Shown: one piece after another, positions 10,402-39,895 of the stretch | How positions within the stretch are numbered: the first letter of the stretch is position 1 | How the letters are laid out: each line of letters opens with the position of its first letter | Source of the DNA: a virus | Length of the DNA stretch: 39,935 nt | IMG/VR virus record: IMGVR_UViG_3300032069_000024 | Span: 1 to 39,935 of that record | Reading direction: 5' to 3' (one strand) | Translations under genes and position numbers: made by a program | Notes under the pieces: model-generated | The model's input: only the letters and a program-made list of their open reading frames with translations | Told to the model about the DNA's origin: nothing | Databases searched by the model: none

Positions 10402-10874
10402 TGAAGGTGAAATATTATCGGGACAAATTACATCTTAATATAGCTGCTTATCAATGTCGTAAATGTAAAAATAACTTTCCAATGAATTTTATGAGTATAA
10501 TAAATGGAAAATGGACTTGTAATAAATGTTTAGGATTAGATTCTAAAATGCTTCAAAAATTAATTAAGTAAAGGAGAGAGATGAAAAACAGTACTAAAGG
10601 TGAAATTTACAAATATATCTGTCAGCATCTAAAATTAAAACCACCGACTCATTATGATATTCAGAAAAAGTTTGGTTTGGCGTTAAGCACTATCAATGAA
10701 CATATTCAATGGCTTAAAAAAGAACATTATTTGAGGAAGGATGGATTGCCAAAGATTTTACCTACAGCAGAAATTTTAGAGAATAATAATTATATCTTTT
10801 TATCCGACAAACATAGAATTAAATCAGATGGGACTACGCCACCAAAAGAATTATCTAAATTAAGTAAAGGAGAG
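10383..10874 (+). repeat. Three copies of a gene-junction repeat
   Basis: The 16-mer ATTAAGTAAAGGAGAG occurs at 10383-10398, 10563-10578 and 10859-10874. The first and third extend to 25 identical bases, including the next start codon. Each copy supplies both the end of one gene and the ribosome site of the next. Such seams let small genes be swapped, lost or gained by homologous recombination. Confidence 0.85.
10401..10571 (+). CDS. Zinc-ribbon microprotein (56 aa)
   Basis: ATG 10401 overlaps the previous stop (TGATG). Two Cys pairs, C19-x2-C22 and C41-x2-C44, form a zinc-ribbon pattern, with basic residues around. Zinc ribbons in small phage proteins bind nucleic acid or host proteins. Flanked on both sides by the repeated TTAAGTAAAGGAGAG seam, so it looks like an exchangeable cassette. 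Confidence 0.65.
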   Translation: MKVKYYRDKLHLNIAAYQCRKCKNNFPMNFMSIINGKWTCNKCLGLDSKMLQKLIK

Positions 10875-11933: not shown

Positions 11934-12364
11934 AAATTCAACTGCGGGAGCTTCTGCCGGCGATGCCGGCGCTAAACAAGATTATTAGTGTGCCGTTTAA
12001 GAACGCCAAATTGGCCTATTCGATTATGAAGACTTCAAAAAAAGTTTTGAGCGAACTGGAAAACATAGAGAAGATGAGATTGGAATTAATTAAAAAGTAT
12101 GCGGAGTTAGATGAGAGGGGTCAGCCGGTTTTAGATGGCAGTCAATTTAAGTTAAGAGATCCTAGGGGTTTTGAGAAGGAATGGGACGATTTTATGGAAA
12201 CAGAAATTGACTTGGATGTCTGGATGTTGCCATTTGAGGCAATAGAAAATGTCCAACCACCACTATCTATTGCCGAAATGAATACTATTGATAAGTTTAT
12301 CAACGAAGATAAAAGAGAACAAGAAATTAAAGAGGCAGAGAAGCCGCAAGAGGAGGTAAAGTGA
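11930..12364 (+). CDS. DUF1617-like phage protein (144 aa)
   Basis: SD GAGAAAGGAG. The helical N-terminal two thirds (helices with LAYSIMKTSKKVLSELENIEKMRLELIKKYAE) and the acidic Asp/Glu-rich C-terminus with a LSIAEMNTIDKFI segment resemble the DUF1617 family of small phage proteins often found beside structural or packaging genes. The family's role is unknown. It overlaps groES by 4 bases, so it is probably in the same operon as the chaperonin. Confidence 0.55.
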   Translation: MKIQLRELLPAMPALNKIISVPFKNAKLAYSIMKTSKKVLSELENIEKMRLELIKKYAELDERGQPVLDGSQFKLRDPRGFEKEWDDFMETEIDLDVWMLPFEAIENVQPPLSIAEMNTIDKFINEDKREQEIKEAEKPQEEVK

Positions 12365-12696
12365 GCAAAAAAATTATTCCTCTTGCAGGGATGGTGCTCG
12401 TCGAGGACGAAGAAGAAAAACTTTCAAGCGGAATTGTATTGGCGGAAGAAAAGGATAAGCAGTCGCAGGTTGGGAAGGTGGTTGATCACACATCCATAAA
12501 AGAAGAAGGAGTCAGACAATTATTAGAAGCTGGATACCAGTTAACTTTACAAGATAATTATGATTTCTACAAAAGTAATCAAATAAAAATCGGTGATACC
12601 ATCATCTACAAAAAATACTCTGCTAGCGAAGTAGAATTGGAAGGTAAAAAATATCGGATTGTGGCTTTCCAGGACATTATTGGTATAATAAAATAA
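12361..12696 (+). CDS. groES: Phage GroES co-chaperonin (111 aa)
   Basis: Start GTG 12361, 5 nt after AGGAGG. The GroES pattern is clear: an N-terminal strand with PLAGMVLVEDEEE, the flexible mobile loop (about 17-31, with the SSGIVLAEE contact that binds GroEL), and the C-terminal signature GDTIIYKKYSASEVELEGKKYRIV. The region between, about residues 43-75, is longer than in the 97-residue E. coli protein (roughly 15 extra residues in the roof area). T4 gp31 has a comparable enlargement that makes room for the capsid protein; the same purpose here is inference. groEL follows 21 bases later. Confidence 0.95.
   Translation: MSKKIIPLAGMVLVEDEEEKLSSGIVLAEEKDKQSQVGKVVDHTSIKEEGVRQLLEAGYQLTLQDNYDFYKSNQIKIGDTIIYKKYSASEVELEGKKYRIVAFQDIIGIIK
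12681..12689 (+). promoter_or_regulatory. Extended -10 promoter inside the groES end, for groEL
   Basis: TGGTATAAT (hexamer 12684-12689) lies in the last codons of groES, with the SD AGAAAGGA and ATG 12718 downstream. A separate groEL start would let GroEL be made in excess of GroES. A gene-specific role cannot be proved from sequence. Confidence 0.5.
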
Positions 12697-12717
12697 GAAT
12701 AGAAAGGAACATTTCAA

Positions 12718-14391
12718 ATGTCCAAAGAACTTTTGTTTGATCTTAAGGCACGAGAAAAACTATTAGTAGGAACTGGAAAAGTTTGCCGCGTAGTTGGGTC
12801 TACTCTAGGTCCCAAAGCGGCCAATGTTGCTATTGAGAGACCATTCGGATCGCCGAGCATCCTCCACGATGGGGTTAGCTGTGCAAAGGAGATAGATTTA
12901 GATGACTCGTTTGAGAACTTAGGAGCTCAACTTATCAAGGAAGCCGCCCAGAAGACTAATGACAATTCGGGAGACGGAACTACCACCGCGACAATTCTAA
13001 CTCATGCGATCGCTTCTGAGGCGATCAAAAACATCGCCGCCGGCTCTAACGCGATGATGTTGCGCAAGGGCATCGAGATGGCGGTGAAAGATATTGTGAC
13101 CGCCCTGAAGAATATGTCGCAGAAGATTAAAACCAACGAGGAGATAAAGCAGATCGCCACCATCAGCGCCCAAGACGAGACCATCGGCTCCCTCATCGCC
13201 GGGGCGATTGAGAAGCTGGGCAAGGATTGTGTGATTGCGGTTGAGGAGTCAAACACGGTCGGGATGAACGTCGAATACAAAGAGGGCATGCAGTTTGACA
13301 AGGGTTGGATCTCGCCGTATTTAATCACCAACCCCCAGACAATGGAAGCGATAATTGACGAACCATATATAGTAATCACGGACGCTAAACTTACCACTAA
13401 CACACAATTTATGGAGTGGGCGAGATACTTAGAGAATCTTTATACTACCGATAAAAGAAAAGAGAACCCGAACGCCCCGGTGCAGATGCCGAAGAACATC
13501 GTCTTTATTGTCGGTGAAGTCTCTGGTATTGCTTTAGGTTCTATAATTCAAAACAAAATTCAAGGATTCTTTAACGTCTTGGCGGTTCAGGCTCCTCAAC
13601 ATGGCGACAAACAAAAAGAATTCTTACAGGACTTGGCGATTGTTACCGGCGGAACTTTTATTTCCGAGGAGACGGGCGGTTCTTTAGCGACGATGAAGTT
13701 AGAAGATTATGGCCACGCCAAAAAGGTGGTCTCAACTAAAGACAGCACAATGGTTATTAGCGGCGAAGGCAACAAGGAAGATATTAAAAAAAGAGTTGAG
13801 CAATTGGAGCATATTCTATCTTCAGATGACACTTCGGAATTTGAGAAGGAAAACTTAAAAGAGCGAATAGCTAAACTGACTTCCGGGATTGCGGTTATCA
13901 ATGTCGGCGCGCCTTCAGAGATGGAGATGAGAGAGAAGAAAGAACGCTGTATTGACGCTATTGAGGCGACTAAAGCGGCGATCGAAGAAGGTATCGTGCC
14001 GGGTGGTGAAGTGGCTTATTTATATGCATCTAAAAGAATAGAAACCGCACCAGGTAATGAACGAGATATAATGACAGGTTATGAATTAGTATTTAAAGCC
14101 ATCAAAAAACCATTCCAGACGCTTATGTCTAATTCGGGATATGATGCTGGACAGATGTTAGAAAAGATTGAGCAGGCACAATTCGCCGACGAGGTTAAAA
14201 ACATCGGTATTGACGTGATTGACGGTCAGATTAAGGATATGGTCAAGGCCGGTATTATTGATCCAGTGAAAGTCAGTAGGACTGCCTTAGAAAATGCGGC
14301 CTCCTGTGCGGCTTCAATTTTAACTACTAATTCTTTGGTGGTTACCAAGAAGGAAAAAGAAGATGGACGAGATACGCCGTCTCAACCATGA
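12718..14391 (+). CDS. groEL: Phage GroEL chaperonin (557 aa)
   Basis: A full-length group I chaperonin. Catalytic and ATP-site residues are kept: D51 (LHDGVSC), the phosphate loop GDGTTTAT (85-92) and D413 in RCIDAIEATKAA (E. coli D52, D87, D398). The apical domain (about 190-375) carries about 16 extra residues (near 240-258, including a Lys/Glu/Asn/Pro stretch) beside the helix that binds substrate and GroES. The usual GGG near residue 430 is GGE, and the GGM-rich tail is missing. ATP-driven rings fold proteins in a closed chamber with GroES. It is encoded within the early-to-packaging transition, so phage coat, portal or large internal proteins are likely clients. Its last bases overlap the next gene. 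Confidence 0.97.
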   Translation: MSKELLFDLKAREKLLVGTGKVCRVVGSTLGPKAANVAIERPFGSPSILHDGVSCAKEIDLDDSFENLGAQLIKEAAQKTNDNSGDGTTTATILTHAIASEAIKNIAAGSNAMMLRKGIEMAVKDIVTALKNMSQKIKTNEEIKQIATISAQDETIGSLIAGAIEKLGKDCVIAVEESNTVGMNVEYKEGMQFDKGWISPYLITNPQTMEAIIDEPYIVITDAKLTTNTQFMEWARYLENLYTTDKRKENPNAPVQMPKNIVFIVGEVSGIALGSIIQNKIQGFFNVLAVQAPQHGDKQKEFLQDLAIVTGGTFISEETGGSLATMKLEDYGHAKKVVSTKDSTMVISGEGNKEDIKKRVEQLEHILSSDDTSEFEKENLKERIAKLTSGIAVINVGAPSEMEMREKKERCIDAIEATKAAIEEGIVPGGEVAYLYASKRIETAPGNERDIMTGYELVFKAIKKPFQTLMSNSGYDAGQMLEKIEQAQFADEVKNIGIDVIDGQIKDMVKAGIIDPVKVSRTALENAASCAASILTTNSLVVTKKEKEDGRDTPSQP

Positions 14392-14676: not shown

Positions 14677-14864
14677 TTAATTTGTTGATTGGTGGTGTGG
14701 TTGGTTATTTGGTTGGCTCTAAAAAATTAGAGAAAAAGATGGAGCAGATTAAAAGTAAGTTCAAACCTCCACCAACTGAATCTGGCCCGGTAAAGCCCTA
14801 TACTCCAGAAGAGAAGGAAGAGTTAGATAATCCAGAACGACAACGATTCAAGGAATTGTTATGA
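14640..14864 (+). CDS. Membrane protein with coiled tail (74 aa)
   Basis: I chose ATG 14640 because TTAGGAG lies about 7 nt upstream; the longer in-frame reading from 14583 has no ribosome site. Residues 2-27 form one hydrophobic segment (AYLLVGSLLTLINLLIGGVV), followed by a Lys-rich helix and a Pro/Glu-rich tail. Function unknown. Confidence 0.6.
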   Translation: MAYLLVGSLLTLINLLIGGVVGYLVGSKKLEKKMEQIKSKFKPPPTESGPVKPYTPEEKEELDNPERQRFKELL

Positions 14865-15223
14865 AATGTCACACTTGTGGTCATATCTCATCACACATAA
14901 GAGTTGATTCAGATGGCAAGGAGAGTTGCCATAATTGCGGCGGGTTCTCTGAAGCTGGCGGTACTTCAACTGATGGCTTATTGACACGAAACAGCTTCCG
15001 TGTCCGCAGAGATTCAATTATGAATGAAGGCGACACTTTACCACCGCACGAATATGATAAGCACGAGAGGAAAATAAAGCCACGAGAGGACTTTATTAAA
15101 CGATTCCCCAACCGAGTCAGCGATACCTATAATCAAAAAGAATTAGATAGAGCAGGCTATAAGAAATTAAAGATAGATAAGCCAAAACCTAAAGCAGAAA
15201 GCGAGGAAATAATTGCCACTTAA
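14861..15223 (+). CDS. Zinc-ribbon protein (120 aa)
   Basis: N-terminal zinc ribbon: C3-x2-C6 and C23-x2-C26 (KCHTCG, SCHNCG). The rest is charged, with conserved-looking R-R-D-S near 48-52 and DFIKRFPNRVSDTY near 76-90, then a Lys/Pro tail. Proteins of this layout are common near phage packaging genes; the role is unknown. Its last codons are part of a 10-base repeat that flanks the next gene. Confidence 0.65.
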   Translation: MKCHTCGHISSHIRVDSDGKESCHNCGGFSEAGGTSTDGLLTRNSFRVRRDSIMNEGDTLPPHEYDKHERKIKPREDFIKRFPNRVSDTYNQKELDRAGYKKLKIDKPKPKAESEEIIAT

Positions 15224-15732: not shown

Positions 15733-15972
15733 ATGAAAAGACCTAAATTATGGGAACGATTTGAACAATTATTAAACAAAGAGGTTAGACTTATTGAAGT
15801 ATCAGATGATGAATGGATTGAGCATTTCTATTTGCTTACGCCTATAGTCCAGAAAGATTATATCCTTAGAGGATTTTATGTTTACAAAGATGGTAGAAAA
15901 GCAATGACATATAAAGGAATTCCAGTAGTATTAAAACAAGAAAAAAAGAAATGCGATCATGAAATACAATAA
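15733..15972 (+). CDS. Unknown small protein (79 aa)
   Basis: A strong SD, GGAGGTGAG, lies about 6 nt before ATG 15733. The product is beta-rich and charged (DDEWIEHFYLL, then an ILRGFYVYKDGRKAM hairpin) ending in a Lys/Glu tail. It overlaps the small terminase start by 14 bases. No family recognised. Confidence 0.65.
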   Translation: MKRPKLWERFEQLLNKEVRLIEVSDDEWIEHFYLLTPIVQKDYILRGFYVYKDGRKAMTYKGIPVVLKQEKKKCDHEIQ

Positions 15973-17820: not shown

Positions 17821-18141
17821 ATGATGATGGTACCCGCCGCTTTTAAGACAAAAGTGCCAGAGATATCAGTTTGGTTAGATGACAATATTGCCGACGAAAA
17901 GATATTGAAAAAGTTTCATTGTGTTGTTTGCGGCAAGACGGTCTTTGAATATTATTCTGATATTGATATTATCATCGCTGGTAAGCATCTTCAAAAGAGA
18001 CCAAAAGTGATTCAATGTAATAATATAGTCATTATGGATTCAGTCACCCAACAAGTTGTTAATGTAACCACTGAAGATTACAACGCCAATCGTAATCGAT
18101 ATTTTAAGATTAAGTGCCGAACGAAATATTGGATTAGCTGA
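17821..18141 (+). CDS. Unknown zinc-ribbon-like protein between terminase and portal (106 aa)
   Basis: It begins MMMVPAAF; three consecutive Met codons, first 6 nt behind the -10. One Cys pair (CVVCGK, about residues 33-38) and two more Cys (about residues 66 and 98) may bind zinc; the rest is beta-rich. Such small proteins lie next to portal genes in some phages, but I cannot name a family. The leaderless start differs from the SD-led portal gene that follows. Confidence 0.65.
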   Translation: MMMVPAAFKTKVPEISVWLDDNIADEKILKKFHCVVCGKTVFEYYSDIDIIIAGKHLQKRPKVIQCNNIVIMDSVTQQVVNVTTEDYNANRNRYFKIKCRTKYWIS

Positions 18142-21842: not shown

Positions 21843-21872
21843 TTGACTTTTTCAAATTAAGTATTATATAAT
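21843..21872 (+). promoter_or_regulatory. Promoter of the major capsid operon
   Basis: TTGACT (21843-21848), an 18-bp spacer and TATAAT (21867-21872). Transcription would start near 21879, just ahead of the leader hairpin. Placed between scaffold and coat genes. Confidence 0.7.
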
Positions 21873-21883
21873 AATATTAAAGA

Positions 21884-21919
21884 CGCTTTAAGCAGTCCGC
21901 CAACTTTGGGCTGTTTTTT
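21884..21919 (+). terminator. Leader terminator (attenuator) before the coat gene
   Basis: CGCTTTAAGCAG at 21884-21895 begins 12 bases after the -10. The stem CAGTCC (21893-21898) with GGGCTG (21908-21913, one G-U) is followed by T6 (21914-21919): a short rho-independent-like terminator only about 40 nt into the transcript. The same 12-mer, at the same distance from a -10, leads another hairpin/T-run at 37206. It suggests transcription attenuation of late genes, opened by an unknown antiterminator. Confidence 0.7.
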
Positions 21920-21945
21920 ATTAAACAATAATAGAAAGGACTACT

Positions 21946-23022
21946 ATGACTTTTTCCGATCAAATTATGGCGATGACACAGGAAGTATTAATTCCTAAAA
22001 TCGTCGACAACGTATTGAATTCAAACATTTTATGTTTGAGGCTCATCGGCAACGCCTTGCAAGGCAAAGGCTATGATATCCGCAAATCAATTAAGTATCA
22101 GTTATCTGGCACGGCCTCGTCTTTTGCCGGGCTTGATACTTTCAGTGCCGCTCAGCTTTCAACCAAAGTGAAGATGGTCTATGACATGCGCGGAGCTCGA
22201 CAGCCCGTGGCTATTTCTGGTATGGATGCCGTGGCCAATGCTTCAGCCGAATCGAAGACTGATTTAGTCAAAGAAGCGGTCGAAGAGACTCAGCAAGAAT
22301 TGGTTGATGCAATTGGGACGATGATCTATGGCACTGGCACCGGCAACGCCAACAAAGACTTCCTCGGTCTGGGAGCGATTGTTGATGATGGCACCGATGT
22401 TACAACTCTTGCCGGTCTGTCACGAACCACTTACTCGGTCTTAAATGCTACCCGAACCGCTTCTGGTGGGACTTTAACCTTAGCTAAATTGGCAACTCTT
22501 TTCTCAGCGATTTCTTCTGGTTCAGGTAACGCCTCGCCGACTTTGATGGTTTCCAACGAGACCGTTTGGGATCTTTACGAGCAGTTATTAACTCCGATGG
22601 TTAGGGAGCAATACTCGATGATGGGATATTACGATGTCGGACGAGTGGGCGGTGCCAAGAGGGCTGGACAGGGTTTGGTTGGCACCCAGGGCTTTGTGGC
22701 GGTTTCCTACAAGGGAATTCCTTTTGTCCGCGACGAGAAAGCCACCTCTCAAAACCTCTTTATGCTTAACGAGAACTGGATGGATTGGTATGGCTGGGAC
22801 GCCAAGGGATTTGCTGACTACTCTAAAGTTGCCTTCACTTCAACCCAAATTGAGGGCGAATATGCCGAACCGCCGATGAGCAACTTCACCGGCTTCAACT
22901 GGTCAGGCCTGAAGACTCCGACCAATCAATTCGGGGTGATCGCCGACGTGATTCTCTTGGGCAACCTGACTTCGTGGCAGCCACGCCGCCAAGGCCGCTT
23001 GACTGGTATCACCGGGGTTTGA
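21946..23022 (+). CDS. Major capsid protein (358 aa)
   Basis: SD AAAGGA. Follows scaffold and begins the structural operon. The alternating helix and beta pattern (MTFSDQIMAMTQEVLIPKIVD, a KSIKYQLSG strand, a DAVANASAESKTDLVKEAVEET helix and a C-terminal YKGIPFVRDEKA strand) matches an HK97-fold coat protein of the P22/podovirus type. No maturation protease or delta domain is visible, so processing may be minimal. GroES/GroEL encoded upstream could assist its folding. Confidence 0.9.
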   Translation: MTFSDQIMAMTQEVLIPKIVDNVLNSNILCLRLIGNALQGKGYDIRKSIKYQLSGTASSFAGLDTFSAAQLSTKVKMVYDMRGARQPVAISGMDAVANASAESKTDLVKEAVEETQQELVDAIGTMIYGTGTGNANKDFLGLGAIVDDGTDVTTLAGLSRTTYSVLNATRTASGGTLTLAKLATLFSAISSGSGNASPTLMVSNETVWDLYEQLLTPMVREQYSMMGYYDVGRVGGAKRAGQGLVGTQGFVAVSYKGIPFVRDEKATSQNLFMLNENWMDWYGWDAKGFADYSKVAFTSTQIEGEYAEPPMSNFTGFNWSGLKTPTNQFGVIADVILLGNLTSWQPRRQGRLTGITGV

Positions 23023-24490: not shown

Positions 24491-24518
24491 ACTTAAAATA
24501 TAAAATAGGTCGATTCCG

Positions 24519-24542
24519 AAAGGATCCGGAAGGATCCTTTTT
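24519..24542 (+). terminator. Rho-independent terminator
   Basis: A 9-bp stem AAAGGATCC/GGATCCTTT (24519-24527 with 24532-24540) closes a GGAA loop and runs into T5. It ends the capsid operon before the next promoter. Confidence 0.85.
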
Positions 24543-24547
24543 GGTAT

Positions 24548-24592: not shown

Positions 24593-25051
24593 ATGCAAAC
24601 TCAATCAAGCTTCTATCGCGACGCTAACAGAGTTCCAATTGTTACAGATGGACTCATAACCAAAAGAACAATAACTTTTGCAGGTGGAACTACAGACGCC
24701 TGGGGAGATTATGACGGTGCTTTAAATGGCACGGCTATATTTACTGTTGAAGGATTGATTTTCGTAAAACTAATTGCAATTTGCACAGCAGATCTAATTG
24801 GCAATACTGCTACAATAGAAGTAGGTATTTCAGGTCAGACAACTATATTTATGCCACAAGAAACAGCTGCCGAGATTGTCGCAGACACTATTTGGCTTCA
24901 CGATGCGGCGAACGCTGATAACGCTATTATAGGAGAAGAAAGTGCGGCAACTGGCAATCTTCCCGAATGGGCTATTTTTGCTCAAGATATTATTTTAACG
25001 GTTGGAACAGCAAATATTACTAGCGGAGCATTAGATTTTTACTGCATATAG
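24593..25051 (+). CDS. Virion protein, beta-rich (152 aa)
   Basis: SD AAAGGA. Beta-rich, with FYRDANRVPIVTDGLITKRTITFAGG and a C-terminal SGALDFYCI. Starts with a promoter of its own after a terminator, so it may be regulated apart from the coat gene. A capsid or connector accessory role is inferred from position only. The 25052-25127 gap before the next gene has nothing I can support beyond an AAAGGAG ribosome site. Confidence 0.6.
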   Translation: MQTQSSFYRDANRVPIVTDGLITKRTITFAGGTTDAWGDYDGALNGTAIFTVEGLIFVKLIAICTADLIGNTATIEVGISGQTTIFMPQETAAEIVADTIWLHDAANADNAIIGEESAATGNLPEWAIFAQDIILTVGTANITSGALDFYCI

Positions 25052-37178: not shown

Positions 37179-37185
37179 TAATTTA

Positions 37186-37194
37186 TGATATAAT
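37186..37194 (+). promoter_or_regulatory. Extended -10 promoter of the internal virion protein operon
   Basis: TGATATAAT (hexamer 37189-37194), just after the preceding gene and 12 bases before the CGCTTTAAGCAG element. Start site near 37201. Confidence 0.65.
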
Positions 37195-37203
37195 ATAAGT
37201 AAG

Positions 37204-37233
37204 ACCGCTTTAAGCAGGTATCAGCGGTTTTTT
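37204..37233 (+). terminator. Leader terminator (attenuator) before internal virion proteins
   Basis: ACCGCT (37204-37209) pairs with AGCGGT (37223-37228), followed by T6. The stem loop contains CGCTTTAAGCAG (37206-37217), identical to the element in the coat leader at 21884 and at the same 12-nt distance from the -10. A transcript would end about 33 nt after its start unless antiterminated. Confidence 0.7.
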
Positions 37234-37247
37234 ATTTAGGAGAATTT

Positions 37248-38258
37248 ATGGCCACTCTAACACCAGAACAAAAAATAGCATTGACTAAACAAAAGACTAA
37301 GACCCCTCCTATTAGTAAATTGGATATACTTAAACAAAAGGCGGCACCCCCAGCAGAAGAACCAATGCCGACCGATCCTTTGGGATTTGCTCAATGGTCT
37401 GCCCGACAAGACCAGAATTTACTTAGAAGTCAGCAACAACAGATAGAGTCTGGAATTGGTCAATATAGGGCGGCCAGTCAAGCCCAGGAGCCGCTACAAG
37501 CGGCCTACACGCGACTTGGCACTGAGGCCGGTGTACCAGAGATTGAAAAAACAATCGGCGGTTATAAAACTCAAATAGCTACTATTCAAAATCAGCTTAA
37601 TGCGCTTGAAGCCAATATAAATGAAAGAACAAGGGGTCAAGGAATGACTGAAGCCCAAAGACAAAGACTGATAGCTCACGAAAGACAACCCTTGACTGAA
37701 CAGCTTGGTCAGGTGAGCACAGCGATGGCGCCCGAGGTTGAACAGTTATCAGCGGCTCAATCTAAAATTGCCACTCAACTTGGACTAATCAGTCAAGACC
37801 AGCAAAAAGCACTCCAACCACTGATTATGCAGATTGATACTATGTCTGACAGATTCTCACGAGAAATCAATATGTATACTTCTGAGAAGCAAACTACCTT
37901 AACGGCCTTAATGGATAAACTGACTCGCGACAGACAATTAGCGGATAGAGAATGGCAACAAGCTCAGGATCTGGCGGCTGAAGAACGAAAGTGGGCACAG
38001 ACTAAAGAACAATTGGCTTTGCAATTCTCGTATGATGCAAAACTCAAAGGTATGACGAGTGGTGAAGATACGGTCACTAAACCTGATGCTGAAAAAAGTC
38101 TGAGAAATGAAATGGCTAATTATATAGCAGCTGGAGGGAATATGGATCCAAATAGTGGAGGAGCAAACGCTTTTAGAGCTTGGTTAGCAAAATATGCCCC
38201 TTATGGATTTTCATCTCAAGACATTAAAAACATCGCCGCCAGTGTTTATGGAGGATAA
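37248..38258 (+). CDS. Internal virion protein, coiled-coil (336 aa)
   Basis: SD AGGAGA. Mostly helical, Gln/Ala-rich with coiled-coil segments (IATIQNQLNALEANINERTRG, QSKIATQLGLISQDQQKAL, DRQLADREWQQAQDLAAEERK). The N-terminus is basic/Pro-rich and the end (YIAAGGNMDPNSGGANAFRAWL) has a small globular look. Proteins like this are ejected with the DNA in podoviruses. It is first in the attenuated operon. Confidence 0.7.
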   Translation: MATLTPEQKIALTKQKTKTPPISKLDILKQKAAPPAEEPMPTDPLGFAQWSARQDQNLLRSQQQQIESGIGQYRAASQAQEPLQAAYTRLGTEAGVPEIEKTIGGYKTQIATIQNQLNALEANINERTRGQGMTEAQRQRLIAHERQPLTEQLGQVSTAMAPEVEQLSAAQSKIATQLGLISQDQQKALQPLIMQIDTMSDRFSREINMYTSEKQTTLTALMDKLTRDRQLADREWQQAQDLAAEERKWAQTKEQLALQFSYDAKLKGMTSGEDTVTKPDAEKSLRNEMANYIAAGGNMDPNSGGANAFRAWLAKYAPYGFSSQDIKNIAASVYGG

Positions 38259-38272
38259 TAAGAAAGTTTAAG

Positions 38273-39895
38273 ATGGCTAAAAAAAAAATTGATTATATAA
38301 TCGGTGAACCAATTGATGTAGATTCTTTAATACAGAACCAGGGATCTTATCAAGAACCCTTTGGAGAATCCGAAGAAGAGAAACGCCGTCGCAGAGAGTT
38401 AGAAGTACTCCAACAGAGATCTCAAGAGGAAGCCCAACCAAGAAGCCTTTGGCAAAGAGCTGGTGGGTTTGTTAGAGGCGTTGGAAGGGGCGTTGAGGAA
38501 ACAGCTAAAGAGATTAAAGCCCATCCTAAAGAAAGTATAATTTCTGCTGGCAAAGGTATTAGAGTTGGTTGGAATGAACTCGCCGATATATCAGGAACTT
38601 TATTCAATAGAGCAATGGAAGCTGGGGGAAATCTTTTATTACCTTCGGATATTACGGAATCAGCTAATAAGAGGGAAGAACAAATTCTTGCAGAATCTCG
38701 CCAAAAGACTGCTCAACAACAAGAAGAAATAAGTCAATTACCAGGAAGGCAAAAAACAATCGGCAAGGTTGGGAAATTTCTTGGTGGTAATGTCCCTATT
38801 ATGGTTGCTTTAAAGGGATTGCCCGTCCCTGCAGTTATTGAGGGAGCTTCACCATTAGTCAGGTGGGCTGGTTCATCTGCAATTAGAGGAACTGAATTTG
38901 CGGGTTATGGTGTATTACAAGATATTGCTGATGGTAAATCAACCAAAGAGACATTAAAAAATATACCCAGAAATTTGACGGTTGGTGCTTTGGCAAATAC
39001 AATACTTAGTCCCAGATTAGCGATTCAAGTCGCAAAAGACCCACTCGGCAAGAAAGCTATTAGAGACTTAACTTCAACTGAAGCCAAGTCTATTATTGAT
39101 CTTTTAGGAGGTAAAGAACCTCCACCTGCGGGCGCCGGGACTATGACTGATATTACCAGAGTCCCGGCCGGCACGGCAGAAGCCGCCTTGAGACCAACGG
39201 TGAGACCACAGCCAGGTTTTGATATTACTGGTAGAGAAGCACGCCCGACTGTAGGATTGGGAGCAGTGCAAGAGGCGATTAGACCAGGAGTCAAGCCAGG
39301 AGAGGTGGGGGGAGTGGGACGACCCGCCGAAGCAATTCCAACTAAAGTACCTAGCACAATATTGCCGGTTGGAGAAGGTGCAACCAAAACAAGCCGATTA
39401 GCTCAAAGAATTACCAGTAGATTGGAAGGACTTGATCAGCAAACCAAAGACGCTTTACCAACCTATAACGTAATGAATAAACAAGACCAGATTGCCGCTG
39501 CGGCAGATTATGTCACTCGAAATCCCGACGAAGCTATGGCGGTCTTAAAAGGCGATGTGGCACCCCCGCAGGGATTATTGCGCAACTCTATCGCTTTAGC
39601 GCTTGAAGAGAAAGCCACTCAGGATGGAGACGCCGAGATGGCAAGAAACTTAGCCAGTCTTTATTCAACCCGCGCAGGTCAGGAAATCAGTATTTTGACT
39701 GAGCGAGATCCAAATAGCCCAGTCAGATACATCGCTGATGTGCAAAAAGCACGCATAGAGGCACGTGGGGGTCAGGAAGCGGTAACACGATCAACCACAG
39801 AAGAAACTGCTAAAATCCAATCGGAGATAGCAAGAACCACTCCGAATAAACAATCATGGTCTGATTTTATAGATTCCTTAAGATGTGGAGGATAA
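38273..39895 (+). CDS. Large internal virion / ejection protein (540 aa)
   Basis: ATG 38273; the ribosome site is weak (AGAAAG-like). The N-terminus (1-70) is charged with a polybasic EEEKRRRRELEVLQQR segment; around 65-190 there are amphipathic helices; residues about 290-350 are a Pro/Gly/Arg-rich linker; the C-terminus (370-540) is helical again and ends FIDSLRCGG. There is no catalytic motif. Across the circular junction the next gene (89-2122) begins one base after its stop. Together they form the largest polypeptide set of the genome and are typical of the internal virion proteins of short-tailed phages. Confidence 0.7.
   Translation: MAKKKIDYIIGEPIDVDSLIQNQGSYQEPFGESEEEKRRRRELEVLQQRSQEEAQPRSLWQRAGGFVRGVGRGVEETAKEIKAHPKESIISAGKGIRVGWNELADISGTLFNRAMEAGGNLLLPSDITESANKREEQILAESRQKTAQQQEEISQLPGRQKTIGKVGKFLGGNVPIMVALKGLPVPAVIEGASPLVRWAGSSAIRGTEFAGYGVLQDIADGKSTKETLKNIPRNLTVGALANTILSPRLAIQVAKDPLGKKAIRDLTSTEAKSIIDLLGGKEPPPAGAGTMTDITRVPAGTAEAALRPTVRPQPGFDITGREARPTVGLGAVQEAIRPGVKPGEVGGVGRPAEAIPTKVPSTILPVGEGATKTSRLAQRITSRLEGLDQQTKDALPTYNVMNKQDQIAAAADYVTRNPDEAMAVLKGDVAPPQGLLRNSIALALEEKATQDGDAEMARNLASLYSTRAGQEISILTERDPNSPVRYIADVQKARIEARGGQEAVTRSTTEETAKIQSEIARTTPNKQSWSDFIDSLRCGG

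Follow-up and report, generated by a model that had tools for sequence, protein, structure and literature searches.

Known controls of phage late genes include the Q protein of lambda, p7 of Xp10 and phage RNA polymerases. In the lambdoid arrangement (Q, pR′-tR′), the late promoter is followed at once by a terminator, and the late genes presumably stay off until a phage factor acts. In the RAT elements of the BglG/SacY/LicT family and in ANTAR-controlled leaders, an RNA hairpin overlaps the 5′ arm of an intrinsic terminator; a protein that stabilises the hairpin keeps this terminator from forming. The Com protein of phage Mu recognises a short RNA hairpin that contains a GAG motif and lies beside an inhibitory structure, selecting GAG(N)2CC (PMC6483171), and the ops element is a small hairpin in non-template DNA (PMC5995543). 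In the phages of Patescibacteria (CPR bacteria), hosts that are ultra-small and parasitic, the timing of gene expression is essentially unknown, and the open-access papers searched, including two recent ones on these phages (PMC13059738, PMC12911398), describe no leaders of the kind presented here. Comparison of related virus sequences indicates that the late operons of such phages carry a genuine and conserved leader that is built like an attenuator switch.

The stretch of DNA analysed (the window) is a complete virus record: it is 39,935 bases long, has a direct terminal repeat of 127 bp and codes for GroEL, terminase, portal and major head protein. The relatives of its coat protein are found on IMG/VR contigs, on one contig of a Woesebacteria genome bin and in TM7 phage MG269973, so that Patescibacteria are probably the hosts. 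The GroEL gene lies with a GroES-like gene at 12361-14391, both phage-coded, and GroEL homologues occur in 13/18 relatives. Two leaders in the window have the same order of parts, namely promoter, the 12-mer CGCTTTAAGCAG, stable hairpin with T6, Shine-Dalgarno sequence and ATG (21946; 37248). The features referred to below are as follows:

17821-18141, + strand: candidate trans-acting factor, a 106-aa zinc ribbon like phage Mu Com, between terminase and portal
21843-21872, + strand: promoter P-coat, TTGACT-18 nt-TATAAT, strong; same position in relatives; predicted start ~21879
21882-21897, + strand: H1 of leader 1, proposed antiterminator hairpin GACGC-UUUAA-GC-A-GUC, from folding and from covariation in relatives
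21890-21919, + strand: intrinsic terminator of leader 1, stem AAGCAGUCCG / UGGGCUGUUU, T6 at 21914-21919, MFE -11.1 kcal/mol
21946-23022, + strand: major head (coat) protein gene behind leader 1, PHROG 9953, E 1.2e-42
37184-37194, + strand: leader 2 promoter, weak -35 and extended -10 TGATATAAT; -10 at 37189-37194; predicted start ~37201
37204-37219, + strand: H1 of leader 2, ACCGC-UUUAA-GC-A-GGU; 12-mer at 37206-37217
37204-37233, + strand: intrinsic terminator of leader 2, stem ACCGCU / AGCGGU with T6, MFE -9.5 kcal/mol
37248-38258, + strand: first gene of the second late operon, 336 aa, homologues in 14/18 relatives

There are exactly two copies of CGCTTTAAGCAG in the window, both on the + strand (21884-21895 and 37206-37217), and each begins 12 nt past the end of TATAAT (21867-21872; 37189-37194). 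These coordinates confirm a sequence-only reading of the same DNA, which had placed the 12-mer at an equal distance from the two -10 elements; the hairpin and T6 that it had described after the 12-mer are likewise present in both leaders (-11.1 and -9.5 kcal/mol). Finding a 12-mer twice in 40 kb is unremarkable; what is unusual is where the copies lie. The genes behind the leaders had been labelled as a coat operon and an internal virion operon: the first label stands, with a match to a PHROG major head protein (E 1e-42), but the block at 37248-39895 has no database match, leaving 'internal virion' without such support. Used as a query for relatives, the 37-kb protein found nothing among viral contigs, whereas a whole-record search did find homologues. 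Elsewhere among the late genes, a palindrome (GAAAGGATCCGGAAGGATCCTTTT, 24501-24545) that is terminator-like and without the H1 layout lies between two genes, and a 152-aa protein (24593-25051) recurs in 13/19 genomes with identity up to 68%, in several of them being more alike than the same genome's coat protein.

Folding places the 12-mer within a second hairpin, H1, that shares nucleotides with the terminator, through the 3′ half in the coat leader and through the 5′ half in the 37-kb leader. In the coat leader H1 lies at about +4 of the inferred RNA, with the 12-mer (21884-21895) inside it, and is predicted to reach -3.8 kcal/mol with only the first 20 nt of the RNA out; the 5′ arm of the terminator includes the entire 3′ arm of H1. 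In leader 2 the outer pairs of H1 are altered on both sides relative to leader 1, the predicted energy is -4.3 kcal/mol for the first 21 nt, and a single segment serves as 5′ arm for both H1 and the terminator.

We examined ~150 bp 5′ of the coat gene in 15 and 59 related loci, two sets that overlap. Nearly all loci with at least 44% coat identity, and one at 34%, have a promoter followed by a 30-50-nt leader and an intrinsic terminator, and a tiny RNA hairpin of 3-6 bp at about +4 of the predicted transcript is kept across ~40 related phages. Its sequence is GACGCUUUAAGCAGUC in the window, GACGCUUAAAGCAGUC in L001, GACACUAUAAGUAGUC in L002, GAACUCUAUACGAAGUC in L006, AACGCCACAGAGCUGUU in L027, AUCGCCACAGAGCUGAU in L028 and ACCGCUUUAAGCAGGU in leader 2 of the window; these are one hairpin altered on both sides, usually with one bulged nucleotide, through compensatory changes from GC/GC to AC/GU to UC/GA, from GAC/GUC to ACC/GGU and from AAC/GUU to AUC/GAU. 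Clade B is more distant: its RNA would begin AGAG, and the stem has three to four pairs (GGU/ACC, GUC/GAC, GAC/GUC, GGC/GCC, GAU/AUC). Across a set of 56 leaders, which together with their H1 stems was partly picked by eye, H1 starts at +3 to +5 in 49, counting from starts predicted from the -10, and its loop sequence varies among phages. The 12-mer itself is another matter. Exact copies are confined to the window among the sequences examined, with near copies in G001 and L242, so the earlier view that the 12-mer is the conserved part, with the check it had proposed of finding the 12-mer in related phages, fails: most relatives are without it, and what is kept is the base pairing of H1 and its overlap with the terminator.

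Searching by the leader pattern alone with a terminator filter yielded two further coat genes (L157, L242). A loose scan of IMG/VR for a promoter followed by AGAGGT..ACCC gave at least 120 stretches, mostly chance, which were retained only if a terminator was present. The coat gene stands without a leader in G014, MG269973, G009 and G019; in two other loci (L034, L051) H1 is kept and the terminator or T-tract is degenerate, a possible partial loss of the switch. We rejected attenuation by a leader peptide, since an ATG within the first 30 nt is present in just 10/56 leaders and there is no common leader ORF.

The pairing of H1 is maintained by compensatory changes. When leader heads and terminator arms were swapped among clade B leaders, own combinations scored 193 against 138±12 for swapped ones (0/2000), and the same swap assessed by folding energy gave -59.4 against -37.5±4.9 (0/2000). 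Exact Watson-Crick complements of the H1 stem triplet are present in 23/27, compared with 13.3±1.8 after swapping (0/5000). Within clade A alone the swap test was not significant (458/2000), because the leaders of this clade are too alike; there the evidence for H1 pairing is the list of compensatory variants given above. For clades B and C, 24 leaders were aligned with MAFFT without guidance, which misplaces several rows; pair counts on this alignment still give 88.9% paired, covariation is 0.518 against 0.262±0.049 (0/500), doubly changed cells number 15 against 6.2, and slid controls reach no more than 0.09.

This covariation, together with the placement, recurrence and mutual exclusion of the two hairpins, can be read from the sequences themselves. 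H1 shares at least 2 nt with the terminator fold in 56/56 leaders, mostly through its 3′ arm. In the 37-kb leader of the window the 5′ arm takes this part; in L027 and L028 both arms contribute nucleotides, the 5′ one over its full length. Because one arm of H1 is also a terminator arm, the two structures are mutually exclusive, and forcing H1 costs the terminator ~8 kcal/mol (median of 56 leaders). Two exceptions, L242 and L002, have a slight overlap in which H1 barely weakens the terminator. The leaders therefore have the two structural features of an attenuator, an intrinsic terminator between promoter and gene and an alternative hairpin that overlaps it and is kept by covariation, the overlap being weak in L002 and L242. 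Median predicted folds over the 56 leaders are -1.4 kcal/mol for H1 alone and -12.8 for the whole leader; with the terminator so much more stable, 'off' is the expected default, and H1 probably needs a partner.

The same layout recurs within genomes. Scans of 19 genomes gave 35 sites at which a promoter, H1-like stem, terminator and start codon occur together, compared with ~5 for shuffled sequence, and in most genomes where this was traced the leader stands before 2-5 late operons (two in the window, G001, G015 and G016, four in G003 and five in G020). In G001, G010 and G011 and, by coordinates, also in G002, it precedes the counterpart of the window gene at 37248; other late genes preceded by it are portal and others in G020 and tail-fibre-like genes in G015 and G016. 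In G003 a homologue of the 152-aa protein lies directly 3′ of one late leader, and in G002 (L088) sites at 10435, 14998 and 18405 on the minus strand are further late leaders with a CGYTTYAGCAAGCC-type start and a poorer H1 fit. By contrast, the leader is missing from the window's four best early promoters, which are near-consensus and lie at 2781, 7290, 8338 and 11720. The sequence-only reading, in which late structural operons share a promoter-proximal terminator as in an antitermination switch, is supported, and comparative evidence supports the class of mechanism as well, but the scope of two sites was too narrow, as dozens of phages carry the leader, at several operons per genome. Leaders of one genome have a common stretch of 7.1 nt, against 4.7 nt between genomes; promoter spacers have no such within-genome likeness (4.5 against 4.5).

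We consider it probable that the leader is a transcription attenuator that holds late operons off, with H1 as a factor-held antiterminator. RNA polymerase would start at the sigma70-type promoter and make an RNA of ~35-50 nt, mostly beginning (A)AGA. By default, transcription would stop before the gene at the terminator hairpin, whose predicted stability far exceeds that of any other fold. H1, at the extreme 5′ end and sharing an arm with the terminator, would emerge first; a trans-acting factor holding it closed would block the terminator and let polymerase continue into the operon. With this element before 2-5 late operons, a single factor would switch the virion genes on together.

Other mechanisms could produce parts of this picture. 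One is processive antitermination as in lambda Q or RfaH/ops: a factor would load on paused polymerase through a promoter-near DNA element and from then on disregard the terminator, with H1 serving as a signal in non-template DNA or for pausing and not as an RNA antiterminator. The lambda pR′-tR′ layout has a promoter-proximal terminator before late genes, as here; H1 sits in the path of the early transcription bubble, and ops is likewise a small non-template DNA hairpin (PMC5995543). We nevertheless think this unlikely: a -10-like pause hexamer is present in 3/56 leaders only, the promoter spacers of one genome share no element, a site for loading on DNA need not overlap an arm of every terminator, and, against the RfaH kind, a search with PF02357 (NusG-like) matched 0/18 genomes and 10/14 controls. 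The leader thus lacks those hallmarks of lambda-Q and NusG-type systems that were tested.

A different possibility is that the operons are unregulated, the terminator insulating them from upstream transcription or tuning output by leaky read-through, with H1 a by-product. Terminators between operons are common and strong promoters could tolerate partial termination, but every one of these terminators follows the promoter of the operon itself, the compensatory changes in H1 would be needless for an insulator, and the layout is repeated before several late operons, so that we regard this as quite improbable. It is also very doubtful, in our view, that H1 is held by a small ligand or by a factor of the host and not by a phage protein, even if leader-less genomes are few and the phage trans-acting factor is itself deduced. 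The leaders gave 0 matches to Rfam covariance models at gathering threshold and their loop sequence is variable, unlike a riboswitch pocket, both of which speak against this view; that stems differ between phages and leaders are alike within a genome is what a phage-coded partner predicts.

For the attenuator reading, the Com-like zinc ribbon at 17821-18141 would be a concrete phage-coded candidate for the factor that binds H1. In profile searches of the phages' own ORFs, its family lies directly 5′ of portal in 17/19 genomes; it is upstream of portal in 17/17 leader-bearing genomes and absent in 3/4 leader-less ones (G014, MG269973 and G009, each without a coat leader), the fourth, G019, having a weak relative (7.5e-5). 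The leader label changes three times on the coat tree, so leader and zinc ribbon may be gained or lost together more than once, a suggestive pattern that involves just four leader-less genomes. In pairwise profile comparison (hhalign) the family scored 96% with Com relatives, over both knuckles, against 6% for a control, another zinc ribbon of the same phages; being pairwise, the comparison makes the likeness a suggestive one. The Com family model PF10122 gave no match over the cut-off, the control being likewise silent; PHROG gpCom matched at E 0.034 in 3/9, and none of the curated models matches the zinc ribbon. GAG occurs within the first six nt of 29/56 leaders, against 3.3 expected on shuffling. 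Its place in the window, ahead of portal and of the two attenuated operons, means that it could be made first. Together these observations suggest, as a lead, that the zinc ribbon acts on H1. That it is a late antiterminator clamping the 5′-terminal hairpin of each late mRNA, which would make a separate class of phage late control in a broad family of Patescibacteria viruses, is a tentative idea that we hold possible and somewhat doubtful. Two other families were rejected as factor: the zinc ribbon at 14861, in all 19 genomes, leader or none, and hence untracked with leaders, and a 79-aa family at 15733, whose spread into the coat protein was false. The former (14861-15223) is a small protein with a QRDxHxxDxIQP...NPDF motif upstream of terminase.

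The leader offers a testable regulon signature by which late operons of uncultured viruses can be predicted from their DNA sequence alone, and the analysis names a candidate regulator for their late genes; if the mechanism is true, it would represent a hitherto undescribed timing of virus assembly. If the Com reading is true, a Com-type RNA switch has moved from translation to transcription. Com acts on the translation of one gene, mom, while here a transcription terminator is the inhibitory structure and the targets are several; the likeness lies in the candidate protein and in the clade B leaders, whose AGAG start recalls the GAG of the Com hairpin. With lambdoid late control the leader shares the promoter followed at once by a terminator and late genes that presumably wait for a phage factor. 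It differs in having no sigma-pause hexamer (3/56) and no promoter element in common, in placing a switch at each operon instead of a single one in the genome, and in a terminator that overlaps the recognition hairpin. That overlap is shared with the RAT and ANTAR-controlled leaders, although among the subset of window proteins scanned no Pfam or PHROG match to a BglG/LicT-type CAT + PRD or an ANTAR protein was found. H1 is far smaller than those elements (3-6 bp, ~16 nt), occupies the extreme 5′ terminus of the RNA and stands before several phage late operons. To our knowledge this makes it among the smallest antiterminators proposed, one that could serve as a compact RNA switch, and its anatomy suggests that the leader works like RAT/ANTAR-type antitermination.
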